NCBI RefSeq assembly: GCF_006334915.2
Contig: NZ_VDMA02000003.1
Location: forward strand, 1-64,000
Direction of reading: 5' to 3'
Length of the DNA: 64,000 nucleotides
Source of the DNA: Microbispora catharanthi
GTDB taxonomy: Bacteria > Actinomycetota > Actinomycetes > Streptosporangiales > Streptosporangiaceae
Made by a program: the position numbers and the translations under genes. The first letter of the stretch is position 1; each line of letters opens with the position of its first letter. A model generated the notes under the pieces. That model saw only the letters and a list, made by a program, of their open reading frames with translations, was not told where the DNA came from and ran no database searches. Shown here piece after piece: positions 2,540 to 39,179 of this stretch.

Positions 2540-3622
2540 ATGCAGCTCTCACGGAAGGTCCTCCGTACGGTCGCTGCCCCGGCCGTGGCCGCGCTGGTCG
2601 CGGGGGGATGCGCGCCGGGAACCGCCCCGGGCCAGACCTCCCCTCCGGCGACGCCCCCCAAGACGGGGACGGCCGCGCCCGTGCCGACCCGCCCTGTCGA
2701 GCTCGAGACGGCCTACGAGCAGGTCATCAAGAGGGTCCTTCCGTCGATCGTGCAGATCACCACAGGACAGGCGCTGGGCTCGGGCATCGTCTACGACACC
2801 GACGGCCACATCCTGACGAACGCCCACGTCGTGGGCGCCGCCAAGGAGTTCCAGGTCACGCTGGCGACCGGCGGCAAGCCGAGGAAGGCCAGGCTGGTGA
2901 GCTCCTATCCCCCCGGCGACCTGGCGATCATTCAGGTCGAGAACAAGAACGGGCTGACACCCGCGACCTTCGGCCGCTCCGCGAACCTCAAGGTCGGGCA
3001 GATCGTGCTCGCGATGGGCAACCCGCTCGGCTTCTCCGGCAGCGTGACCCAGGGCATCGTGTCGGCCCTGGGCCGCACCGTGACGGGCGAAAGGCACGCC
3101 GGCGGCGGGGCCGCGACCATCACCAACGCCGTCCAGACCTCCGCGCCCATCAACCCCGGCAACAGCGGCGGCGCGCTGGTGGACCTGTCCGGCCAGGTCA
3201 TCGGCATCCCGACGCTGGCCGCCGTCGACCCCAACCTGGGCGCCGCGCCCGGCCTCGGCTTCGCGATCCCGAGCGACACCGCGACCGACATCGCCCGCCA
3301 GATCATCCGGTACGGCCGGGTCGTCAACAGCCATCGGGCGGCCCTCGGCGTACGGGTCGGCACGGCGGTCGACGCGGACGGCAACCCGATCGGCGTGGCC
3401 GTCGGCTCGGTGTCCCCCGGCGGCGGCGCGGACAAGGCGGGCATCCGCCCCGGCGACGTGATCGTGAAGGTCAACGGCACGCCCACGCCCACCGCCAGCG
3501 CTCTGTCGCAGGTCCTGGTGACGCTGAAGCCGGGCGACAGGGCCCGGGTCGAGCTGAGGCAACCGGACGGCACCAAGAGCACGGTCACCGTCGTGCTCAG
3601 CGAACTGCCGGCGGGGGGATGA
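2540..3622 (+). CDS. HtrA/DegP-type trypsin-like serine protease with PDZ domain, lipoprotein
   Basis: The protein has 360 residues. A signal peptide ends in a lipobox with Cys24, so it is probably anchored to the outer face of the membrane. A Pro/Thr-rich linker follows, then a chymotrypsin-fold protease with all three catalytic residues: His96 (NAHVVG), Asp127 (GDLAII) and Ser209 (GNSGG). One PDZ domain (about residues 265-355, with AGIRPGDVIVKVNG) should bind C-termini of substrates. The architecture is the standard actinobacterial DegP-like plan and suggests a role in extracytoplasmic protein quality control. It is transcribed divergently from the acyl-CoA dehydrogenase gene across a 200 bp gap. 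Confidence 0.9.
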   Translation: MQLSRKVLRTVAAPAVAALVAGGCAPGTAPGQTSPPATPPKTGTAAPVPTRPVELETAYEQVIKRVLPSIVQITTGQALGSGIVYDTDGHILTNAHVVGAAKEFQVTLATGGKPRKARLVSSYPPGDLAIIQVENKNGLTPATFGRSANLKVGQIVLAMGNPLGFSGSVTQGIVSALGRTVTGERHAGGGAATITNAVQTSAPINPGNSGGALVDLSGQVIGIPTLAAVDPNLGAAPGLGFAIPSDTATDIARQIIRYGRVVNSHRAALGVRVGTAVDADGNPIGVAVGSVSPGGGADKAGIRPGDVIVKVNGTPTPTASALSQVLVTLKPGDRARVELRQPDGTKSTVTVVLSELPAGG

Positions 3623-29862: not shown

Positions 29863-30585
29863 TCAGGCGGATCCGTCCGCCGCGAGGCGGTCGAGCCATT
29901 CGCCGAGCACGTGACGTTCCCCGTCGGTGAGAGCCGTGGCGTCGGGCAGCGCGGCGCGCAGTGCCATCGCCGCCGTGGCGGGTCCGGGGGTTTCGACCGC
30001 GGGGGCATCGGTGGTGATGGCGGCTGTCACCGCGTCGCGGGCCACCTCCGACAGGCGCGGGTCACGCCGCTCCTCGGGCAGGGCGAGCAGCGTGAAGACC
30101 GTGCCGCAGCCCGCGGCGTGCACGAGGTCCGCCGCCAGGCGCTCGCCGACCTTCAGCCGGCCGGCGGCGGCGATGGCGCGGATGCGCTCCCCCAGCATGC
30201 GGAAGGCGGCGACGGCGGCGGGCGACTGCCGTCCCGGCGTGGGATCGCCGTACATGAGCGAGAACAAGGCGGGATTCGCCAGCCCGAAGCCGACGTGCAG
30301 GTCCCATCCGGCGCGCAACGCCTCGACCGGGTCGTCGGCAGGCGGGCTCGCCTTCTTGTCCTGCAGATATGAGCTGAAGCCATACTCGGCGACCGCGTCG
30401 AGCAGGCCCTCCTTGTCGCCGAACAGCCGGTAGATCGTCGGGGCCTGTGTCCCCGCCGCGGCGGCCACCGCTCTGGTCGAGAGGGCGTCGCGCCCGCCGC
30501 TCGCGAGCAACCGGGCCGCGACCGACACGATGTGGGCCCGCGTCCTGTCGCGGCCGCTCGCCGCCTCGCTCTCCGGATCGCTCAT
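29863..30585 (-). CDS. TetR-family transcriptional regulator
   Basis: The protein has 240 residues. The N-terminal HTH is clear (TRAHIVSVAARLLASGG, then STRAVAAAAGTQAPTIYRLF followed by GDKEGLLDAV), and a helical ligand domain follows. It is divergent from the NmrA-type gene at 30670, with a 14 bp inverted repeat in the 84 bp between them, so it probably represses both. It converges on the terpene synthase gene with 23 bp between stops. Confidence 0.9.
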   Translation of the reverse strand: MSDPESEAASGRDRTRAHIVSVAARLLASGGRDALSTRAVAAAAGTQAPTIYRLFGDKEGLLDAVAEYGFSSYLQDKKASPPADDPVEALRAGWDLHVGFGLANPALFSLMYGDPTPGRQSPAAVAAFRMLGERIRAIAAAGRLKVGERLAADLVHAAGCGTVFTLLALPEERRDPRLSEVARDAVTAAITTDAPAVETPGPATAAMALRAALPDATALTDGERHVLGEWLDRLAADGSA

Positions 30586-30606
30586 GCTTCCAACGATATC
30601 AGCTTG

Positions 30607-30659
30607 TTGCTATCGGCGATTTTCCAGTGTTAGCGTTCAGCCGATATCGCCGATAGCAA
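30607..30659. promoter_or_regulatory. TetR operator: 14 bp inverted repeat between divergent genes
   Basis: TTGCTATCGGCGAT at 30607-30620 and its exact reverse complement ATCGCCGATAGCAA at 30646-30659 flank a 25 bp spacer. The right arm overlaps a second palindrome, CGATATCG. The right arm runs into the AAGGAG ribosome site of the 30670 gene, so binding would block its expression. The adjacent TetR gene is the obvious ligand-responsive repressor. Confidence 0.7.
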
Positions 30660-30669
30660 GGAGTGGATC

Positions 30670-31518
30670 GTGATCGTCATCACCGGAGCGACCGGCCGGC
30701 TCGGCCGCGGCGTCGTCGAGCGCCTGCTCGCGCGTCTCCCCGCCGACCGGATCGGCGTCAGCGTCCGCGACCCCCTCAAGGCCCAGGACCTGGTGGACCT
30801 CGGCGTACGAGTCCGGCAGGGCGACTTCGACGACCCCGCGAGCCTGGCGCACGCGTTCGAGGGCGCGTCGCAGGTGTTGGTCGTCTCCGGCCCGGCGGAC
30901 GCCCGCCCGCACCGGACGGCGATCGAGGCCGCCAGGGCCGCGGGCGCCGAGCGGATCCTCTACACAAGCCACATGGGCGCGAACCCGGCCTCCCCTTTCG
31001 CCCCGATGCCGTCCCACGCCGAAACCGAGCAGGACCTGCGCGCATCCGGGGTCGCGTTCACCGCGCTGCGCAACGGCTTCTACGCGACCACCGCGGTCCA
31101 TTTCGTGAGTCAGGCGCTGCAGAGCGGCACACTCGTCGCCCCCGAGGACGGCCCGGTCTCCTGGACCGCCCACGCCGACCTCACCGAGGTGGCCGCCGTC
31201 GCGCTGACGGAGGAGGGCCGGCTCGACGGGATCACCCCGCCGCTGACCGGTCCCGAGTCACTCGACCTCGCGGACGTCGCCGCGATCGCCTCCGACCTGA
31301 CGGGACGCGTGATCACCCGCGTCACCGTCCCGGACGACGAGTGGGTCGCGGGCATGGTGTCGCACGGCGCGCCCGAGCAGCAGGCCCGCTTCTTGCTGGG
31401 CATGTTCGAGGCCAGCCGTCGGGGAGAGTTCGCCGAGGCCGGCCCCGCCCTCGGGGAGCTGCTCGGTCGTAAGCCGATCGCGTTGCGCGAGCTGCTGGCG
31501 GCCACGCTGACGAACTGA
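30670..31518 (+). CDS. NmrA-like NAD(P)-binding oxidoreductase
   Basis: The protein has 282 residues. The N-terminal Rossmann motif is TGATGRLGRGV, and the fold continues with the SGPADARPHRTAIEAARAAG and LYTSHMGANPASPF segments of atypical short-chain dehydrogenases such as the quinone reductase QorB group. It likely reduces a quinone or senses the redox ratio of NAD(P). GTG at 30670 has AAGGAG at good spacing. The regulator is the divergent TetR gene. Confidence 0.87.
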   Translation: MIVITGATGRLGRGVVERLLARLPADRIGVSVRDPLKAQDLVDLGVRVRQGDFDDPASLAHAFEGASQVLVVSGPADARPHRTAIEAARAAGAERILYTSHMGANPASPFAPMPSHAETEQDLRASGVAFTALRNGFYATTAVHFVSQALQSGTLVAPEDGPVSWTAHADLTEVAAVALTEEGRLDGITPPLTGPESLDLADVAAIASDLTGRVITRVTVPDDEWVAGMVSHGAPEQQARFLLGMFEASRRGEFAEAGPALGELLGRKPIALRELLAATLTN

Positions 31519-31615
31519 CCTGCGCGGCGTCCGGCCCTTTTGCGCCTGATTCCGCCCGTTCGATTCGCGTGATCGTTACAGTACGTCGGACGGAGCGTTC
31601 CCAGGGAGTGCAGGC

Positions 31616-32536
31616 ATGGGCAGGCGCAAATACCGGAACGAACGTCGTCACTACAGATACATCGAGGCCGTGGTGCTCGGCCGTGTTCTCGACGAGAACA
31701 CGCAGTCGGTGCTGCGGATGCTGCCCGGGCAGCCGATGGTGACGGCCGACCATTTCTCCGCATCCGTGGATTGGGACGACTACACGCGGGAGATGGAGGA
31801 ATTCGTCGAGCAGACGTTCGACGCCTGGCTGTTCTTCGACAACGACGGTCCCCGTACGGTCGCCTTCCGGATCCCCGGCGAGGCGCTGCCGGCGCAGGCC
31901 GTCGCCCCGCACCTGCACGGCGACGTGCTTCAAGGCCTGCGCATGGAAACGAGCGACGACGACCTGCTCCTGCGGTTCAGCATGTACGCCGAGGACTCCG
32001 AGCTGTTCAACCTGCACGAGTCGGGCACGGGATGGCTTCGGGACATCCTTCCGGTCCGCGAGGAGCTGATGTCGGGCAGGCTCGACGCGCTGGAGCTGGG
32101 GCGGGTGGTCGGCACCCACTGGGACGAGGTCGACCGCGACCTGTCCGCCGAATATGGGCTGTCGAAGGCGTCACGCGTCCTGGCGGCGTACCTGCTGGTC
32201 GCTCCCCGGGAACTGGCACGCTTGGCGGCCGAGCGGGCGGAAGCGGGGGGCGGGGAGCTGCCCCCGGGGTGGCTGTCCACCTGCTCCGGTCTCGAACCGG
32301 TGACCCGATGGGAGTTCGCCGCCGCCGATCCGCGCAAGTCCTTCCAGATCACCCTGGGCCGACTGCCGAGCGGCTGCGAGTACGGCGGCTGGTACGTGAC
32401 GTCGTCGGAGCCCCGCGGCAGGCCCCTGGCCTTCCGCACGGAGGACGACGCCCGTCGTGGCTACCACGACGAGGCGCTACGACTGCAACGGCTCAACGAC
32501 CCCGGCCGATGGCGGCAGCTGGACCCCACTGTGTGA
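31616..32536 (+). CDS. protein of unknown function
   Basis: The protein has 306 residues and is probably cytoplasmic, with no signal peptide or membrane helix. It starts with a very basic stretch (MGRRKYRNERRHYRYIEA), and later parts are mixed alpha/beta with many acidic residues (YAEDSELFNLHESGTGWLRD). No catalytic motif was recognised. ATG at 31616 has AGGGAG upstream. Coding bias is normal for the region, supporting a real gene. It stands alone between the NmrA gene and the secreted repeat protein. Confidence 0.65.
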   Translation: MGRRKYRNERRHYRYIEAVVLGRVLDENTQSVLRMLPGQPMVTADHFSASVDWDDYTREMEEFVEQTFDAWLFFDNDGPRTVAFRIPGEALPAQAVAPHLHGDVLQGLRMETSDDDLLLRFSMYAEDSELFNLHESGTGWLRDILPVREELMSGRLDALELGRVVGTHWDEVDRDLSAEYGLSKASRVLAAYLLVAPRELARLAAERAEAGGGELPPGWLSTCSGLEPVTRWEFAAADPRKSFQITLGRLPSGCEYGGWYVTSSEPRGRPLAFRTEDDARRGYHDEALRLQRLNDPGRWRQLDPTV

Positions 32537-32744
32537 GCCACTACGGGCTCGGGACGAGGGTGCGGAAACTTTCATCGGCCGAGATCGCCCACCAGCACGT
32601 CCATGCCGCCCACGCCGCCGAGGATGGCCGCCGGAAAACGGCAAATCTACGATGACTTCGCGCGCCCCGAGATCACGCCCATAAGCGGGGATCAGAGCAC
32701 ATCCTGCACTGTCGCTATGCATCAGGCGCTCATAGGAGGCGCGA

Positions 32745-33311
32745 ATGACTCAGCACGATGAACCGTACGGGAAATCCCGGCGTGGTTCGCTCGCCGGGCG
32801 ATTGATGATCCTGGTGGCGCTCGTCGCGGCGGGGATCGGCCTCAGCCCGGCGGCGGCCCACGCCGACACCTGGCGGACGGCGACCGGCTCGGCATGGGGC
32901 CAGACGCAGGCCACGGCTTCGGCGGCGGCCCAGGCGAGCGCCCGCACCGCCCTCGCCAATCTGGCCACCCAACTGGGGGAGGTCTGCACGAACGTGACCT
33001 CGTCGGCCACCCTCGTGTACGTCGTACCGAGCGGAGGTGGCTACCAGTACAGCGGAACCGCGACCGGCCTGTGCGCTCCCGCGCCGCCACCGCCCTCCTA
33101 CACCGTGTCGCGCACCGCGACGGCTCGCGGTGAGGCGAGCACGTACTCGGCGGCTGTGCAGAACGGCGCGGCAGCGGCCCGTGCCGCCATCCTCGCGGCC
33201 GGAGGCGACTGCACCGGCTATCAGACGACCGCCGTGAACTATGTGTACGTGACTCCTACCGGAAGCTGGTACATCTACGACGTGACCGTGTCCGCTCTCT
33301 GCGTGCAGTAA
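32745..33311 (+). CDS. secreted protein with two internal repeats
   Basis: The protein has 188 residues. The signal peptide runs to about residue 41 (LMILVALVAAGIGLSPAAAHA). The mature part contains two related units of about 65 residues, each with an Ala-rich helical segment (ATASAAAQASARTALANLAT and STYSAAVQNGAAAARAAILA) followed by a Tyr/Val-rich strand region and a Cys pair, and separated by a Pro run. AGGAGG lies upstream of the ATG. The function is unknown. An adhesive or wall-associated role is possible but unsupported. Confidence 0.72.
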   Translation: MTQHDEPYGKSRRGSLAGRLMILVALVAAGIGLSPAAAHADTWRTATGSAWGQTQATASAAAQASARTALANLATQLGEVCTNVTSSATLVYVVPSGGGYQYSGTATGLCAPAPPPPSYTVSRTATARGEASTYSAAVQNGAAAARAAILAAGGDCTGYQTTAVNYVYVTPTGSWYIYDVTVSALCVQ

Positions 33312-33451
33312 CACCTCTCGGTGTCGATCGCGGGGCGCGGTCAGCCGAATTAGGCGGCCCCGTTTTCCGGGCCGATTTTCATGTCGGGACATCCGGCGAC
33401 CTCACCATGGCCAGATATAAAGTGTCATGAAAACATGTGAGGAGGCCGAAA

Positions 33452-33883
33452 ATGCTGGTCGAATGGCTGGCAGCGGTGGCCGCGGCGGGCGGAACCGCGG
33501 TGGTGCAGGCCGCGGGCACTGACGTGTGGGTGAGCGTGCGGCAGCGGGTGGCGCATGTACTCGGCCGCGACGATCCCGAACGTGAGCAGGCGGAATTGAT
33601 GCGGCTGGATCAGACCGCGACGGATCTCGCCTCACTCGCCCCGGGGGAGGCGGCGCTGATGCGGGCCCGGCAGGAGGCGTCCTGGACGGCCCGATTCGAG
33701 ATGCTGCTGGAGAGTCTCGGCGAGGCCGAACGCGAACGGATCGCCCACGAACTGAACGACATCGCCGACGAGGCTCGTCACGCGTCCGTGGGAGGAGTGT
33801 CGGGGAACGTTTTCCATGGACCGACCGCGTTTCAGGTCGGGGACCGCAACCGTCAGGACAACCACTTCGGGCCGAGGGCATGA
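33452..33883 (+). CDS. small helical protein with C-terminal amyloid-signalling-like motif
   Basis: The protein has 143 residues. An N-terminal hydrophobic helix (LVEWLAAVAAAGGTAVVQAA) and a further helical region to about residue 112 make a small alpha-helical domain. It resembles the putative membrane-active effector domains that carry bacterial amyloid signalling sequences. Residues 117-140 form the motif SGNVFHGPTAFQVGDRN followed by RQDNHFG. Nearly the same motif opens the next protein. GAGGAGG precedes ATG 33452, and the stop overlaps the next start by 4 bp (ATGA). The best inference is an effector that is seeded by templating from the downstream partner. No experimental relative was recognised with certainty. 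Confidence 0.7.
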   Translation: MLVEWLAAVAAAGGTAVVQAAGTDVWVSVRQRVAHVLGRDDPEREQAELMRLDQTATDLASLAPGEAALMRARQEASWTARFEMLLESLGEAERERIAHELNDIADEARHASVGGVSGNVFHGPTAFQVGDRNRQDNHFGPRA

Positions 33884-35508
33884 CCCGCGACTCCGAATCA
33901 GGAAGAGACGGAGTATCGGGAAACGTCTTCCACGGCCCGGCCCCCTTCCAGCTCGGCGATCGCAACGTCCAGATCAATCACATCCATCAGCCGGCGCCGC
34001 AGCGCCGCCCGCTGGTCCTCGCAGGTGTGGCGGTTACGACCCGAGAAGAACTGGCCGCCGCCATCCGCGGCGACTGGACCGCCGCGAGGCGTCAGTTCTT
34101 CGAGGGCGCCGCCACGACCGGCGCACCCTCCGACGGTTGGCTCAGCCTTCTCGCCTGGCTGCACGAGCTCGACGGTCTCACCGCCGATGACCTGACCGCT
34201 CAGATCGAACTCATCGACCATCGGCTCCGAGACGACGGACTCCCGGCTGACCTGAAACTGCTTCACCTGCTGGGCTGGCTCGATCCGGAGGGAGAAGCCG
34301 TCTGGCGAGGAACGGTCGTGACCCCGGAGTCGCTTTCCGAGGCGCTCAGGATCGGTCGTCTGCGCGAAAGCGGCCCCGAATGGGAGCTCTACCGCGACCT
34401 CTGCGAGGGCGGCTTATTGGACGCCCTCTCCAGATTCACTGTGCTGAGCGCGCTCCGCGGAACGCAACGGACCTGGGACGAGGTCTGGGATTCGTGGCGG
34501 CAGCTGGCCGCTCGGGTGCCCGACCTGCCACCCGAAGCCCGGGAGTGGGCCGGGAGCGGGGCGCGCGGGCTGCTGCTGGCGGCCCTTCTGCCCTACTCGG
34601 AGAGCAAGACGTGGTTGCGCGCCGGCTGCGAGAGCGTGGCACCACCCCCCACTGGTGAGATCACCTGGTACGACTGGTTGCGCGCGCGGGATGGCGGCTC
34701 CGACACCCCTATCGGGTGGCTCGTGCGCGCCGACTTCACCGCCTTCGCCGCGGCCCAGGCGGAACAGCGGCGTCGGCAGGCGGCGGTCGACCGGCAGAAC
34801 CAGCAGGCGATGACCGCGCTGGACGCCGCCTCCGCTCTGCGGGACCGGCAGTGGGCCGACTATGAGAGCCGGCGGCTCTCGCCCACCGCCCGATCGGGAG
34901 CGGTCATCCGCGCGGCGCTGTGGCTCGGGACCTGGGGCGCGGCCACGATCCCGGTGGCCTGGATCATGTGGGGCTGGGCTCGGCCGGACATCGCCGCGAC
35001 GCTGTCCTGGTATCTCGTCGCGCTGACCCTGGCGGCGTACGCGGGCTGGCTACCAAGAGTCATACGGCTCGGCGCGGCGTACCAGCCTCCGCTGCGGCGC
35101 ATGCGCGAATGGGCCGAGGAGGCCCGGGCCGACCCCGGAAGCGTTCGGAGGGGTCTGATCAGAGCCGGCGCCGTGGTCGCAGCCCTCCTGATCCTTGGGG
35201 TGCTCCTTCACGACATCGGCGTCATCGCGACAACGGTTCTCGTCACTCCCTTGCTGGCCGCGGCGTTCTATTTCGCCCGCATCGGGGCGCTTCACGACTG
35301 GGCGGACGAGCATAAGGAGCGACTGCGGGACTACAAGTCCAGGCGGCCCGGTTCCGGCGGCATTCCTGAGAGCATCGTCCGAGGCGTTCAATCGCCGTCG
35401 GCCAGAGTCCGGGCCGACGCCTACCAGGCGTACATGCGACAGTTCATCGGCCTCGACCACGGTGGGAAGGACGACGCCGACCGCGAGAACGACCGCCGCA
35501 GCCGCTGA
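33880..35508 (+). CDS. membrane protein with N-terminal amyloid-signalling-like motif
   Basis: The protein has 542 residues. Residues 12-33 carry the motif VSGNVFHGPAPFQLGDRN followed by VQIN, matching the C-terminus of the preceding protein. Residues about 45-285 are a helical, Trp-rich domain of unknown family. Residues 290-331 look like a coiled coil. Four membrane helices follow at about 343-366, 370-391, 426-444 and 447-468, with a basic cytoplasmic tail. Coupled to the upstream gene by a 4 bp overlap, it could act as the sensor that exposes the motif and templates the small partner. Recognition of the middle domain was not possible by eye. Confidence 0.68.
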   Translation: MTRDSESGRDGVSGNVFHGPAPFQLGDRNVQINHIHQPAPQRRPLVLAGVAVTTREELAAAIRGDWTAARRQFFEGAATTGAPSDGWLSLLAWLHELDGLTADDLTAQIELIDHRLRDDGLPADLKLLHLLGWLDPEGEAVWRGTVVTPESLSEALRIGRLRESGPEWELYRDLCEGGLLDALSRFTVLSALRGTQRTWDEVWDSWRQLAARVPDLPPEAREWAGSGARGLLLAALLPYSESKTWLRAGCESVAPPPTGEITWYDWLRARDGGSDTPIGWLVRADFTAFAAAQAEQRRRQAAVDRQNQQAMTALDAASALRDRQWADYESRRLSPTARSGAVIRAALWLGTWGAATIPVAWIMWGWARPDIAATLSWYLVALTLAAYAGWLPRVIRLGAAYQPPLRRMREWAEEARADPGSVRRGLIRAGAVVAALLILGVLLHDIGVIATTVLVTPLLAAAFYFARIGALHDWADEHKERLRDYKSRRPGSGGIPESIVRGVQSPSARVRADAYQAYMRQFIGLDHGGKDDADRENDRRSR

Positions 35509-35537
35509 ACGGACGACAGCGGCCCCAGTGCTGGGCG

Positions 35538-35569
35538 ATGGCCGCGCCCGGCGGCGGTCAATAGGATCC
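35538..35569 (+). promoter_or_regulatory. conserved upstream element of kinase gene 1
   Basis: A 32 bp block beginning ATGGCCGCGCCCGG and ending GGTCAATAGGATCC recurs upstream of the second kinase at 39234-39265 with a single difference (ATAGG versus ATAAG). It lies about 40 bp before the start codon. TAGGAT/TAAGAT within it could serve as a -10 hexamer. Its conservation outside the coding region suggests a shared promoter or regulator site. Confidence 0.55.
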
Positions 35570-35606
35570 TTGTCGATCTGTCGAAAAGCATTCCAGCGGG
35601 GGCGAT

Positions 35607-37781
<2,175 letters not shown>

Positions 37782-37845
37782 ACTACGGCCATCGTGGGAG
37801 ACGACGGCGAACGAGTAAATCAACAAATCGGGAGAATGCTGTCCA

Positions 37846-38535
37846 ATGGCGACCTATGTGTTGATCCACGCTGCGGCGGTCGATTCCTGGTATTGGGGAC
37901 CGCTCTCGGCCGCTTTACGAGACCGGGGCCACGACGTGGTGGCACCGGACCTGCCGTGCGACGACGAGTCGGCCGGGCTCGAAGAGTACGCGGACACGGT
38001 GGTCGAGGCGATCGGCGGGCGCACAGGTCTGGTCGTCGTCGCCCACTCGTTCGGCGGGTTCACCGGCCCGCTGGTGTGTGACCGGGTGCCTGCCGACCTG
38101 CTCGTGATGCTCCAGGCCCAGATCCCGGCTCCCGCCGAGTCGCCCGGCGAATGGTGGGGCAACACCGGCTACTGGGCGGCACGGGAGGAAGCCGACCGGC
38201 GCCGAGGCGTCCCGGGCGGCACGGAGGAGGACACGCTTTCCCTCGTGCTGCATGACACCCCGGCCGACCTGGCCGCCGAGTTCGTCGCCCGACACCAGCG
38301 GCACCAGGCGCCTACCCCATTCGGCAAGCCGTGGCCGCTGGCGTCCTGGCCGGACGTGCCGACCAGGTTCCTGCTGGCCGCCGGCGACCGCTTCTTCCCG
38401 GCCGAGTTCATGCGCGGGATCGTCACCGAGCGTCTCGGTTTCCAACCGGACGAGATGCCTGGTGATCACTGTCCGATGCTCGGTCACCCGAAGGAACTGG
38501 CCGACCGCCTTGAGGCGTACCGCACCGGGCTCTGA
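37846..38535 (+). CDS. alpha/beta hydrolase
   Basis: The protein has 229 residues. The nucleophile elbow is VAHSFGGF (Ser68), the acidic residue is in LLAAGDRFFP, and the catalytic His is in GDHCPMLGHP. The start TYVLIHAAAVDSWYW carries the oxyanion-loop HA instead of the common HG. The family includes esterases, lactonases and C-C hydrolases, and the substrate is unknown. GGAGAA lies upstream of the ATG. It lies between the two kinase paralogues, 64 bp after the first and 14 bp before the convergent TetR stop. Confidence 0.87.
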   Translation: MATYVLIHAAAVDSWYWGPLSAALRDRGHDVVAPDLPCDDESAGLEEYADTVVEAIGGRTGLVVVAHSFGGFTGPLVCDRVPADLLVMLQAQIPAPAESPGEWWGNTGYWAAREEADRRRGVPGGTEEDTLSLVLHDTPADLAAEFVARHQRHQAPTPFGKPWPLASWPDVPTRFLLAAGDRFFPAEFMRGIVTERLGFQPDEMPGDHCPMLGHPKELADRLEAYRTGL

Positions 38536-38549
38536 ACAGTGCTGACTCG

Positions 38550-39179
38550 TCAATCGCCGTTGGCCTTGCGGAGGCGGGCGCGGACCGTGCGGCGAACCAG
38601 CGGGCCCATGTCCTCCAGGACGGCGACCAGGCCGGCGAGCTGCTCCAAGCTGTCGAAGGCGCGCTCCGCGCCGTCCTTGTCGACGCCCTCGTACAGTTCG
38701 AGACCGACGAAGGCCGCCGCGGTGGCGCGGGCCAGCCCGGCGACGTCCACGAACTCCGTCAGCGGGGTGCCGGCCAGCACTCGGTGGAGGACGTCCTCGA
38801 CCTCGGCGACCCACATGCCGAGGCCGGCCGCGGTGGCGGGGGCGAGTTTGTCGTCCATCTGGCTGCCCGCGAGCATCTGGGCGAGCACGGCCAGGCTCCC
38901 CGCCTCGCGCTCCTCGGCGTGCAGGGAACGGCCGAGGTCGAGCAGTTCCTTCAGGGAGTTCACGGCCGCGAACCGAGCCCGATAGACCGCCACCCGCTGT
39001 TCCGACCCGTGCCGCAGGGCCGCGGCGAGGAGGTCGTCCACGCTGCCGAAGTGGTAGAAGACGAGGGCCTGGTTGACCCCGGCCGCGGAGGCGATCGCCC
39101 GCGCAGAGGCCCCCGCGATGCCCTGGGTCCGCAAGGTCTCCAGAGCGCCTTCGAGCAGCCGCGTACGGGTGTCACCCAT
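38550..39179 (-). CDS. TetR-family transcriptional regulator
   Basis: The protein has 209 residues. The HTH reads TRTRLLEGALETLRTQGIAG followed by ASARAIASAAGVNQALVFYH, and a helical ligand domain follows. ATG at 39179 with AAGGGGAG upstream is preferred to the longer open frame, which runs back across the kinase 2 leader. It is divergent from kinase 2 and convergent with the hydrolase. It may control the hydrolase or the second kinase. Confidence 0.88.
   Translation of the reverse strand: MGDTRTRLLEGALETLRTQGIAGASARAIASAAGVNQALVFYHFGSVDDLLAAALRHGSEQRVAVYRARFAAVNSLKELLDLGRSLHAEEREAGSLAVLAQMLAGSQMDDKLAPATAAGLGMWVAEVEDVLHRVLAGTPLTEFVDVAGLARATAAAFVGLELYEGVDKDGAERAFDSLEQLAGLVAVLEDMGPLVRRTVRARLRKANGD

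Follow-up and report, generated by a model that had tools for sequence, protein, structure and literature searches.

Two overlapping genes of the soil actinobacterium Microbispora catharanthi, referred to here as A and B, each carry one copy of a common 24-residue motif, near the C-terminus of the A product and near the N-terminus of the B product. This raises the question whether the pair is an amyloid-signalling system and, if so, what kind of receptor B would be. The first-pass annotation of the window (the whole stretch of DNA analyzed, 64,000 nucleotides) had claimed an effector with an adjacent partner that is not an NLR. We consider it likely that A and B form a two-gene cassette of the bacterial amyloid signalling sequence (BASS) type, in which a non-NLR membrane receptor, B, templates a membrane-attacking, Bell-like effector, A. 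The features of the locus are the following:

33439..33445, + strand: GAGGAGG, read from the sequence as the likely ribosome binding site of gene A
33452..33883, + strand: gene A, 143 aa, coding for a candidate Bell-like effector whose C-terminus carries an amyloid-signalling-like motif
33452..33763, + strand: A domain, residues 1-104, of which the first 26 residues form a strongly conserved Ala/Gly-rich hydrophobic segment (conservation, hydropathy)
33797..33868, + strand: motif on the effector side, residues 116-139, inside GVSGNVFHGPTAFQVGDRNRQDNHF
33880..35508, + strand: gene B, 542 aa, membrane protein with an N-terminal motif
33910..33981, + strand: motif on the receptor side, residues 11-34, GVSGNVFHGPAPFQLGDRNVQINH
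34000..34899, + strand: B core ahead of the membrane segments, residues 41-340, without Pfam match, common to trypsin- and kinase-fused relatives
34900..35292, + strand: B membrane region, residues 341-471, with three to four hydrophobic segments

Alignment of the A tail with the B head gave 24 ungapped columns, starting at 'GVSG', with 19 identical residues. The local score was 104, while shuffled sequences scored 23.9 on average and 49 at most (5000 shuffles). Ten of the identical residues are encoded by the same codon and nine by synonymous codons. Chance and recent copying were ruled out as origins of the motif by this shuffle score and by the synonymous codon differences. The count reported earlier, 16 of 20 residues identical and 8 of these 16 differing synonymously, described a slightly shorter stretch of the same match, and the shared C-terminal and N-terminal motif is confirmed. 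A protein search of the organism's own genome with the motif (E<=10; 9.25 Mb, 68 contigs) returned no third copy. The overlap of the two genes by ATGA is present as had been claimed and was kept in all 8 Microbispora loci that were parsed (near-duplicates included; L086 unparsed). One TAG lies within the B match of genome G065.

Five Microbispora loci (L086 unparsed; L003-L005 excluded as near-duplicates) were compared in all 10 pairings. The summed, uncorrected pN/pS was 0.07 in the B copy of the motif, compared with 0.33 in the A copy and 0.32 in the A domain. These values indicate that the B copy of the motif is under strong purifying selection and that the A copy is constrained just as its domain is.

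The gene directly downstream of B in the window (35607-37781, + strand) encodes a protein in which Pfam recognizes a Ser/Thr kinase and a GH6 glycosidase-like domain, connected, by eye, through a hydrophobic stretch. It has the same position in L003, and similar stretches were also seen in L003, L004 and L005. Both this gene and the 32745 gene were rejected as parts of the system, as the neighbours vary across three Microbispora loci while A-B is constant. No known defence gene was recognized among three neighbours put to Pfam, and no Rfam match was found within 30000-39000.

Among the relatives of A, the best 120 of 315 were examined. Of these, 99 end in the motif type of the window (88 by pattern, 11 by eye), 5 from M. 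bryophytorum break off inside the motif and 16 have other tails, one of which (P0085) closely matches the Frankia BASS3 peptide discussed below. The nearest relatives of A, as well as those of B, are from Microbispora wherever the source is named. In 79 chosen motif-bearing rows the conservation amounted to 3.65 bits for residues 1-26, 2.79 bits for the remaining domain, 1.76 bits for the linker and 3.41 bits for the motif. The linker is 10-15 residues long and poorly conserved, which indicates that the motif is a separate element and not the edge of a globular domain. The first-pass annotation had named the possibility that the motif belongs to a longer conserved globular domain. This was ruled out by the variable linker together with the B cores that occur free of the motif.

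The A domain has no family match in Pfam, NCBIfam or PADLOC, and its best match in a PDB sequence search, considered with the HeLo/MLKL four-helix domains in mind, was to an iron-compound binding protein (E=0.044). Since none of these identifies the domain, the term Bell-like is used for layout only: like the Bell effectors, A is small and begins with a hydrophobic segment, a linker leads to the motif at its C-terminus, and its gene lies beside that of a receptor. The hydropathy maximum of A, 1.46 at residues 1-19, is borderline. A-family matches were found in 0 of 50,697 phage records and in 50 of 72,556 plasmid records, all below 60% identity. Three reading frames (P0065; L242:3046-4869 on plasmid NZ_CP109239.1; L169:3255-6809) join receptor-type parts (TPR, or NB-ARC and TPR), effector domain and motif, and are perhaps fusions of the two genes. 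In L169 the receptor side comes first and lies 3.3 kb from the other motif side; effector-like domain, motif and NB-ARC/TPR part stand in one reading frame (by eye; Pfam), a natural fusion of parts.

The motif was found to be paired in other genomes as well. The motif profile, A5, was built from both sides of known pairs; it favours similar two-sided finds and cannot create adjacency. In 394 genomes of the class, the motif-only profile gave 30 matches in 14 genomes, and 26 of these lie in same-strand pairs at most 500 bp apart, in 11 of the 14 genomes. In 297 genomes of the family of G437, which is Streptomyces-like by its proteins, 74 matches were found in 34 genomes, with 58 in such pairs in 27 genomes. 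G437, G268, G526 and G547 are among the genomes hit in both samples. The neighbouring gene pairs for which a motif-profile search had been proposed at first pass are thus present elsewhere.

A-family loci, of which at least 79 came from named genomes, were also scored for pairing. An A ORF was found in 78 (the 79th is without A match) and a usable next gene in 58. In the 20 loci omitted from the 78 the next ORF is missing, short or frame-ambiguous; several of them (L007, L008, L011, L032, L057 and L060) bear the motif in the next gene by eye, so that the omission does not favour the pairing reading. The tails and heads of the 58 pairs scored 48.6 on average, compared to 29.5 (sd 1.42, maximum 34.9) in 10000 re-pairings. 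Individually, 27 of the 58 pairs match at p<=0.01, and the 31 unmatched pairs belong mostly to a AVGGDVHVRADHGSIAAGV-like tail class. The A domain also occurs with tails of the SQVLGSGT, RIYQLGQGE and SVQSGDHNHMVNN types, several of them with a matching head in the next gene. A tail of the SQVLGSGT or GSGTQ type recurs as a motif near the start of the next product in L028, L053, L054, L055, L058 and L076, and represents a separate motif class. A different arrangement was observed in L178, where the motif pair is carried by divergent, not overlapping genes (1771-2694, - strand, and 2852-3223, + strand) whose products both have membrane segments; this is possibly an all-membrane version.

The partner proteins were typed in 46 fetched regions (13 + 33, 25 of the 33 chosen as pairs), 37 of which contain both motif sides. 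On the receptor side, a P-loop pattern, as judged by a loose pattern, was found in 29 loci, a membrane segment without P-loop in 7 (L168, L175, L176, L212, L230, L231, L232) and a short untyped product in one (L217). L231 was moved by eye from the NTPases, where its pattern is weak, to the membrane proteins; the script alone gave 30 P-loop, 6 membrane and 1 other. No NTPase family was found by Pfam in the 7 membrane partners. Pfam analysis of 14 of the 29 P-loop partners showed that 6 pass the cut-off for NB-ARC or NACHT (L169, L170, L211, L215, L226, L227). Sub-threshold matches to the NB-ARC, NACHT or nSTAND families were seen in L172, L218 and L224, there with TPR repeats, and in L239 (NACHT). 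L222 showed WD40 repeats among the matches listed (25 of 52 families), L166 had one sub-threshold AAA match, and L167 and L209 had nothing at E<=0.001. Two further loci of the A-family set, L006 and L010, have NB-ARC and NACHT.

On the effector side, the A family accounts for 17 of the 37 two-sided loci and at least two other families, by eye, for the rest. The partner in these 17 loci has a P-loop pattern in 14 and is a membrane protein in 3. A would therefore be the effector of the pair, since NLR-type proteins and B share it as a partner. The effector/partner layout with a non-NLR partner, claimed for the window at first pass, is thus present here and generalizes to other loci. Single-pass proteins (hydropathy) with an N-terminal motif and a ricin-type lectin past the membrane segment (Pfam) were encountered beside A-family effectors at L014:6459-7172 and L037:6477-7217.

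The motif itself resembles BASS3, a RHIM-like bacterial amyloid signalling sequence as far as described in excerpts of three sources (PMC7889193, PMC9815663, PMC8086366). A Frankia BASS3 effector peptide, ORT49035.1_103_123, is reported to be amyloid-like by FTIR and Congo red in an excerpt of PMC8086366. This peptide scored 22.5 bits against profile A5, while the best of 1000 shuffles scored 11.0; aligned pairwise, it matched A with p=0.0010 and B with p=0.0002, the lowest value attainable with 5000 shuffles. Two glutamines seven apart are present in 72 of 79 A rows and in 15 of 15 motif-bearing B rows. Two glutamines with the same spacing were mutated in the BASS3 motif of S. atratus, and both Q113P and Q120P abolished foci (PMC9815663, in excerpt). 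Judging from their spacing, the glutamines of the A/B motif may correspond to Q113 and Q120. The motif appears BASS3-like by comparison with the Frankia peptide and is not a new one, which corrects the first-pass annotation.

An unlikely alternative, though the most probable of the three considered, is that the motif serves for docking: a short element, folded solely within a stoichiometric A-B complex by beta-arch pairing without fibres, which would make A and B an ordinary two-component assembly. The two motif copies are indeed non-identical, and the far stronger constraint on the B copy (pN/pS 0.07, versus 0.33 for A) suits a receptor site over a homopolymer. However, such docking is at odds with the resemblance to a BASS3 peptide reported to aggregate in an amyloid-like manner and with the conserved glutamine pair. 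It also fits poorly with the range of proteins that bear this motif class, which by eye comprise at least three effector families together with NLR-type and membrane proteins. Amyloid templating of A by B is the reading preferred here.

Gene B was described at first pass as a four-helix membrane protein. Three hydrophobic segments, with peaks at 371-389, 431-449 and 453-471, are above the cut-off, while the fourth, around 345-363, is weaker. B has neither a P-loop pattern nor a Pfam NTPase match, and a hidden NLR was ruled out accordingly. B as a TctB transporter, after the name given in one database record, was rejected as well (Pfam 14.8 bits versus a cut-off of 29.1). B is a further, multi-pass, non-NLR kind of partner.

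Searches for relatives of B yielded 34 among 7996 scored candidates. Of these, 21 have the N-terminal motif, 12 have a trypsin-like domain instead and one has neither. The common part of P0142, a trypsin form, and B shows 46% identity. In genome searches, B-family relatives with an N-terminal Ser/Thr kinase were also found (L090 by Pfam, others by eye). Finally, L089 combines the B core with a different motif, GVHNEITGDAHSVVQARDIHGDVVFH, of the VVQARD type, with no effector recognized alongside. The N-terminal module of B is thus exchanged on one core. The first-pass annotation had called this core an unrecognised helical domain; there is indeed no Pfam match, but the family bears a trypsin-like protease or a protein kinase N-terminally elsewhere. 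A trypsin-like or Trypco2 match by Pfam was found in neither A nor B.

In both of the trypsin-form loci examined, a Trypco2 gene overlaps upstream (L113 by Pfam, L124 by eye). The kinase-form cores of L114, L125 and L126 stand in gene rows with an AAA ATPase (Pfam for L114; by eye for L125 and L126), and such rows also hold a radical SAM-type protein (L114) and a DUF4282 protein (Pfam, L126). The VVQARD-type core of L089 (L112:5404-7788, - strand) has a transposase upstream, which we take to be IS110-like, and at least two other proteins of this genome, NLR-like by eye, have similar motifs. The VVQARD motif of L089 and L024 may be of the BASS2 or the BASS3 kind: it could not be matched to the Frankia peptide, and BASS2 is reported, in an excerpt of PMC9815663, to contain an ARD triplet.

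In a phylogeny of 37 B cores, a motif-bearing group lies on either side of the trypsin forms; the forks concerned are weakly supported. The tree needs three module changes, the minimum possible for four states. The motif-bearing B rows fell into one group in 20% of the bootstrap trees, and a single origin of the motif-bearing form is possible.

As a protease or kinase stands at the place of the motif in its relatives, B would act as the receptor. The same relatives could be taken to favour reversed roles, with B as the effector and A as a sensor or adaptor that activates it. This is quite improbable: the motif-bearing form of B lacks an enzyme and has A instead, and A occurs as a common output of unlike receptors (14 P-loop and 3 membrane partners among 17 loci). 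A reading of B as receptor and A as effector is therefore retained.

Co-occurrence of A and B was analyzed in 15 selected genomes, 5 with a motif-bearing B, 6 with other B forms and 4 of Microbispora without B, each searched for A. A adjoins B in all 5 genomes with a motif-bearing B. At E<=1e-6, A is absent from all 6 genomes with other B forms (G007, G176, G182, G079, G098, G037). It is also absent from 3 of the 4 Microbispora genomes without B; in the fourth, G097, A is broken off within the motif. The G097 sequence passes directly from within this motif into a fragment of B, the remainder of which is missing, so that this joint loss was probably one event, decay rather than independent evidence. 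Within the 15 genomes, A with its motif was found only beside a motif-bearing B. An additional, distant A-like stretch (38% over residues 8-124) lies away from B in G187. In genomes other than these 15, members of the A family are frequent without B, and then lie next to NLR-type genes. In the genus Microbispora, B is present in 6 of 10 genomes listed, its own included. This patchiness, with decay in some strains, might suggest that the tags are left over from a gene that was once fused or duplicated and now serve no function. Such a remnant is very improbable, as both motif copies are under purifying selection, all 8 parsed Microbispora loci retain the ATGA overlap and other families show the pairing too.

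It is hypothesized that the cassette works as follows. B would be located in the membrane with its motif on the cytoplasmic side, and would be activated or clustered by a signal, for which phage infection and envelope damage are guesses. The N-terminal motifs of B may then stack to form a beta-arch nucleus, which would template A molecules, produced from this one overlapping gene pair, through their C-terminal motif. Polymerized A would push its conserved N-terminal hydrophobic segment into the membrane, by which the cell would be killed or sealed off, and such a pair may serve in defence. Nucleation of an effector motif by a receptor motif is assumed here by analogy with published pairs, as described in part of PMC7889193.

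A wider reading, towards which we lean slightly, is that bacteria have a class of membrane-anchored amyloid-signalling receptors. In these, a signal from outside or in the membrane would start amyloid formation inside the cell and set off a cell-death effector, and the B core would be a general switch with its output exchanged among protease, kinase and two kinds of amyloid motif. Several apparently unrelated proteins also carry this same motif N-terminally, followed by a membrane segment and a further domain, which is a ricin-type lectin in L014 and L037 and an unnamed domain in L032/L212, L175/L176, L178, L230, L231 and L241. In these proteins the further domain probably lies outside the cell. 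In bacterial amyloid signalling the nucleating job is described for NLRs, which act on the effector (PMC12261475, PMC7889193, both in excerpt). If membrane proteins indeed nucleate, the principle would reach cell-surface signals and resemble the receptor-driven signalosomes of animals. As one core bears either the motif or a protease or kinase, it offers a direct test of whether amyloid templating replaces receptor-effector fusion, and the Microbispora pair is compact, consisting of two genes only.

Several known systems share parts of this arrangement. Trypsin-Trypco2 conflict systems, as described in part of PMC7159879, include trypsin-like proteins overlapping a Trypco2 gene, as relatives of B do. 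The B of the window, however, has no protease, and its partner is A and not Trypco2. In the fungal NWD2/HET-S and HELLP pairs, according to part of PMC7889193, one amyloid motif is likewise present on a receptor and an effector encoded by neighbouring genes, but the fungal receptors are NLRs, whereas B is a membrane protein without NTPase. BASS-type motifs are described at NLR receptor N-termini or effector C-termini in the excerpted PMC12261475, to which the review PMC7889193, also in excerpt, adds CHAT and TIR associations. A membrane-type receptor side was not found in the literature on such motifs, as covered by parts of PMC12261475, PMC7889193, PMC7159879, PMC8195603, PMC12881547, PMC10907252 and PMC7885112. 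The closest likeness is to BASS3. The core FQ(V/L)GDxNxQxNxF of A and B matches VQVGDGNVQINRF of the Frankia peptide, including the glutamines seven apart, and the motif is found at the C-terminus of a small effector and at the N-terminus of the product of the adjoining, overlapping gene. The A/B motif differs in its extended N-terminal half, SGNxFxGPTA versus VDLRDAKG. The BASS pair layout, in which effector C-terminus and adjoining receptor N-terminus both bear the motif, is thus present with a receptor that is not an NLR, and we rate the A-B pair as known in its motif type and layout and new in its kind of receptor.
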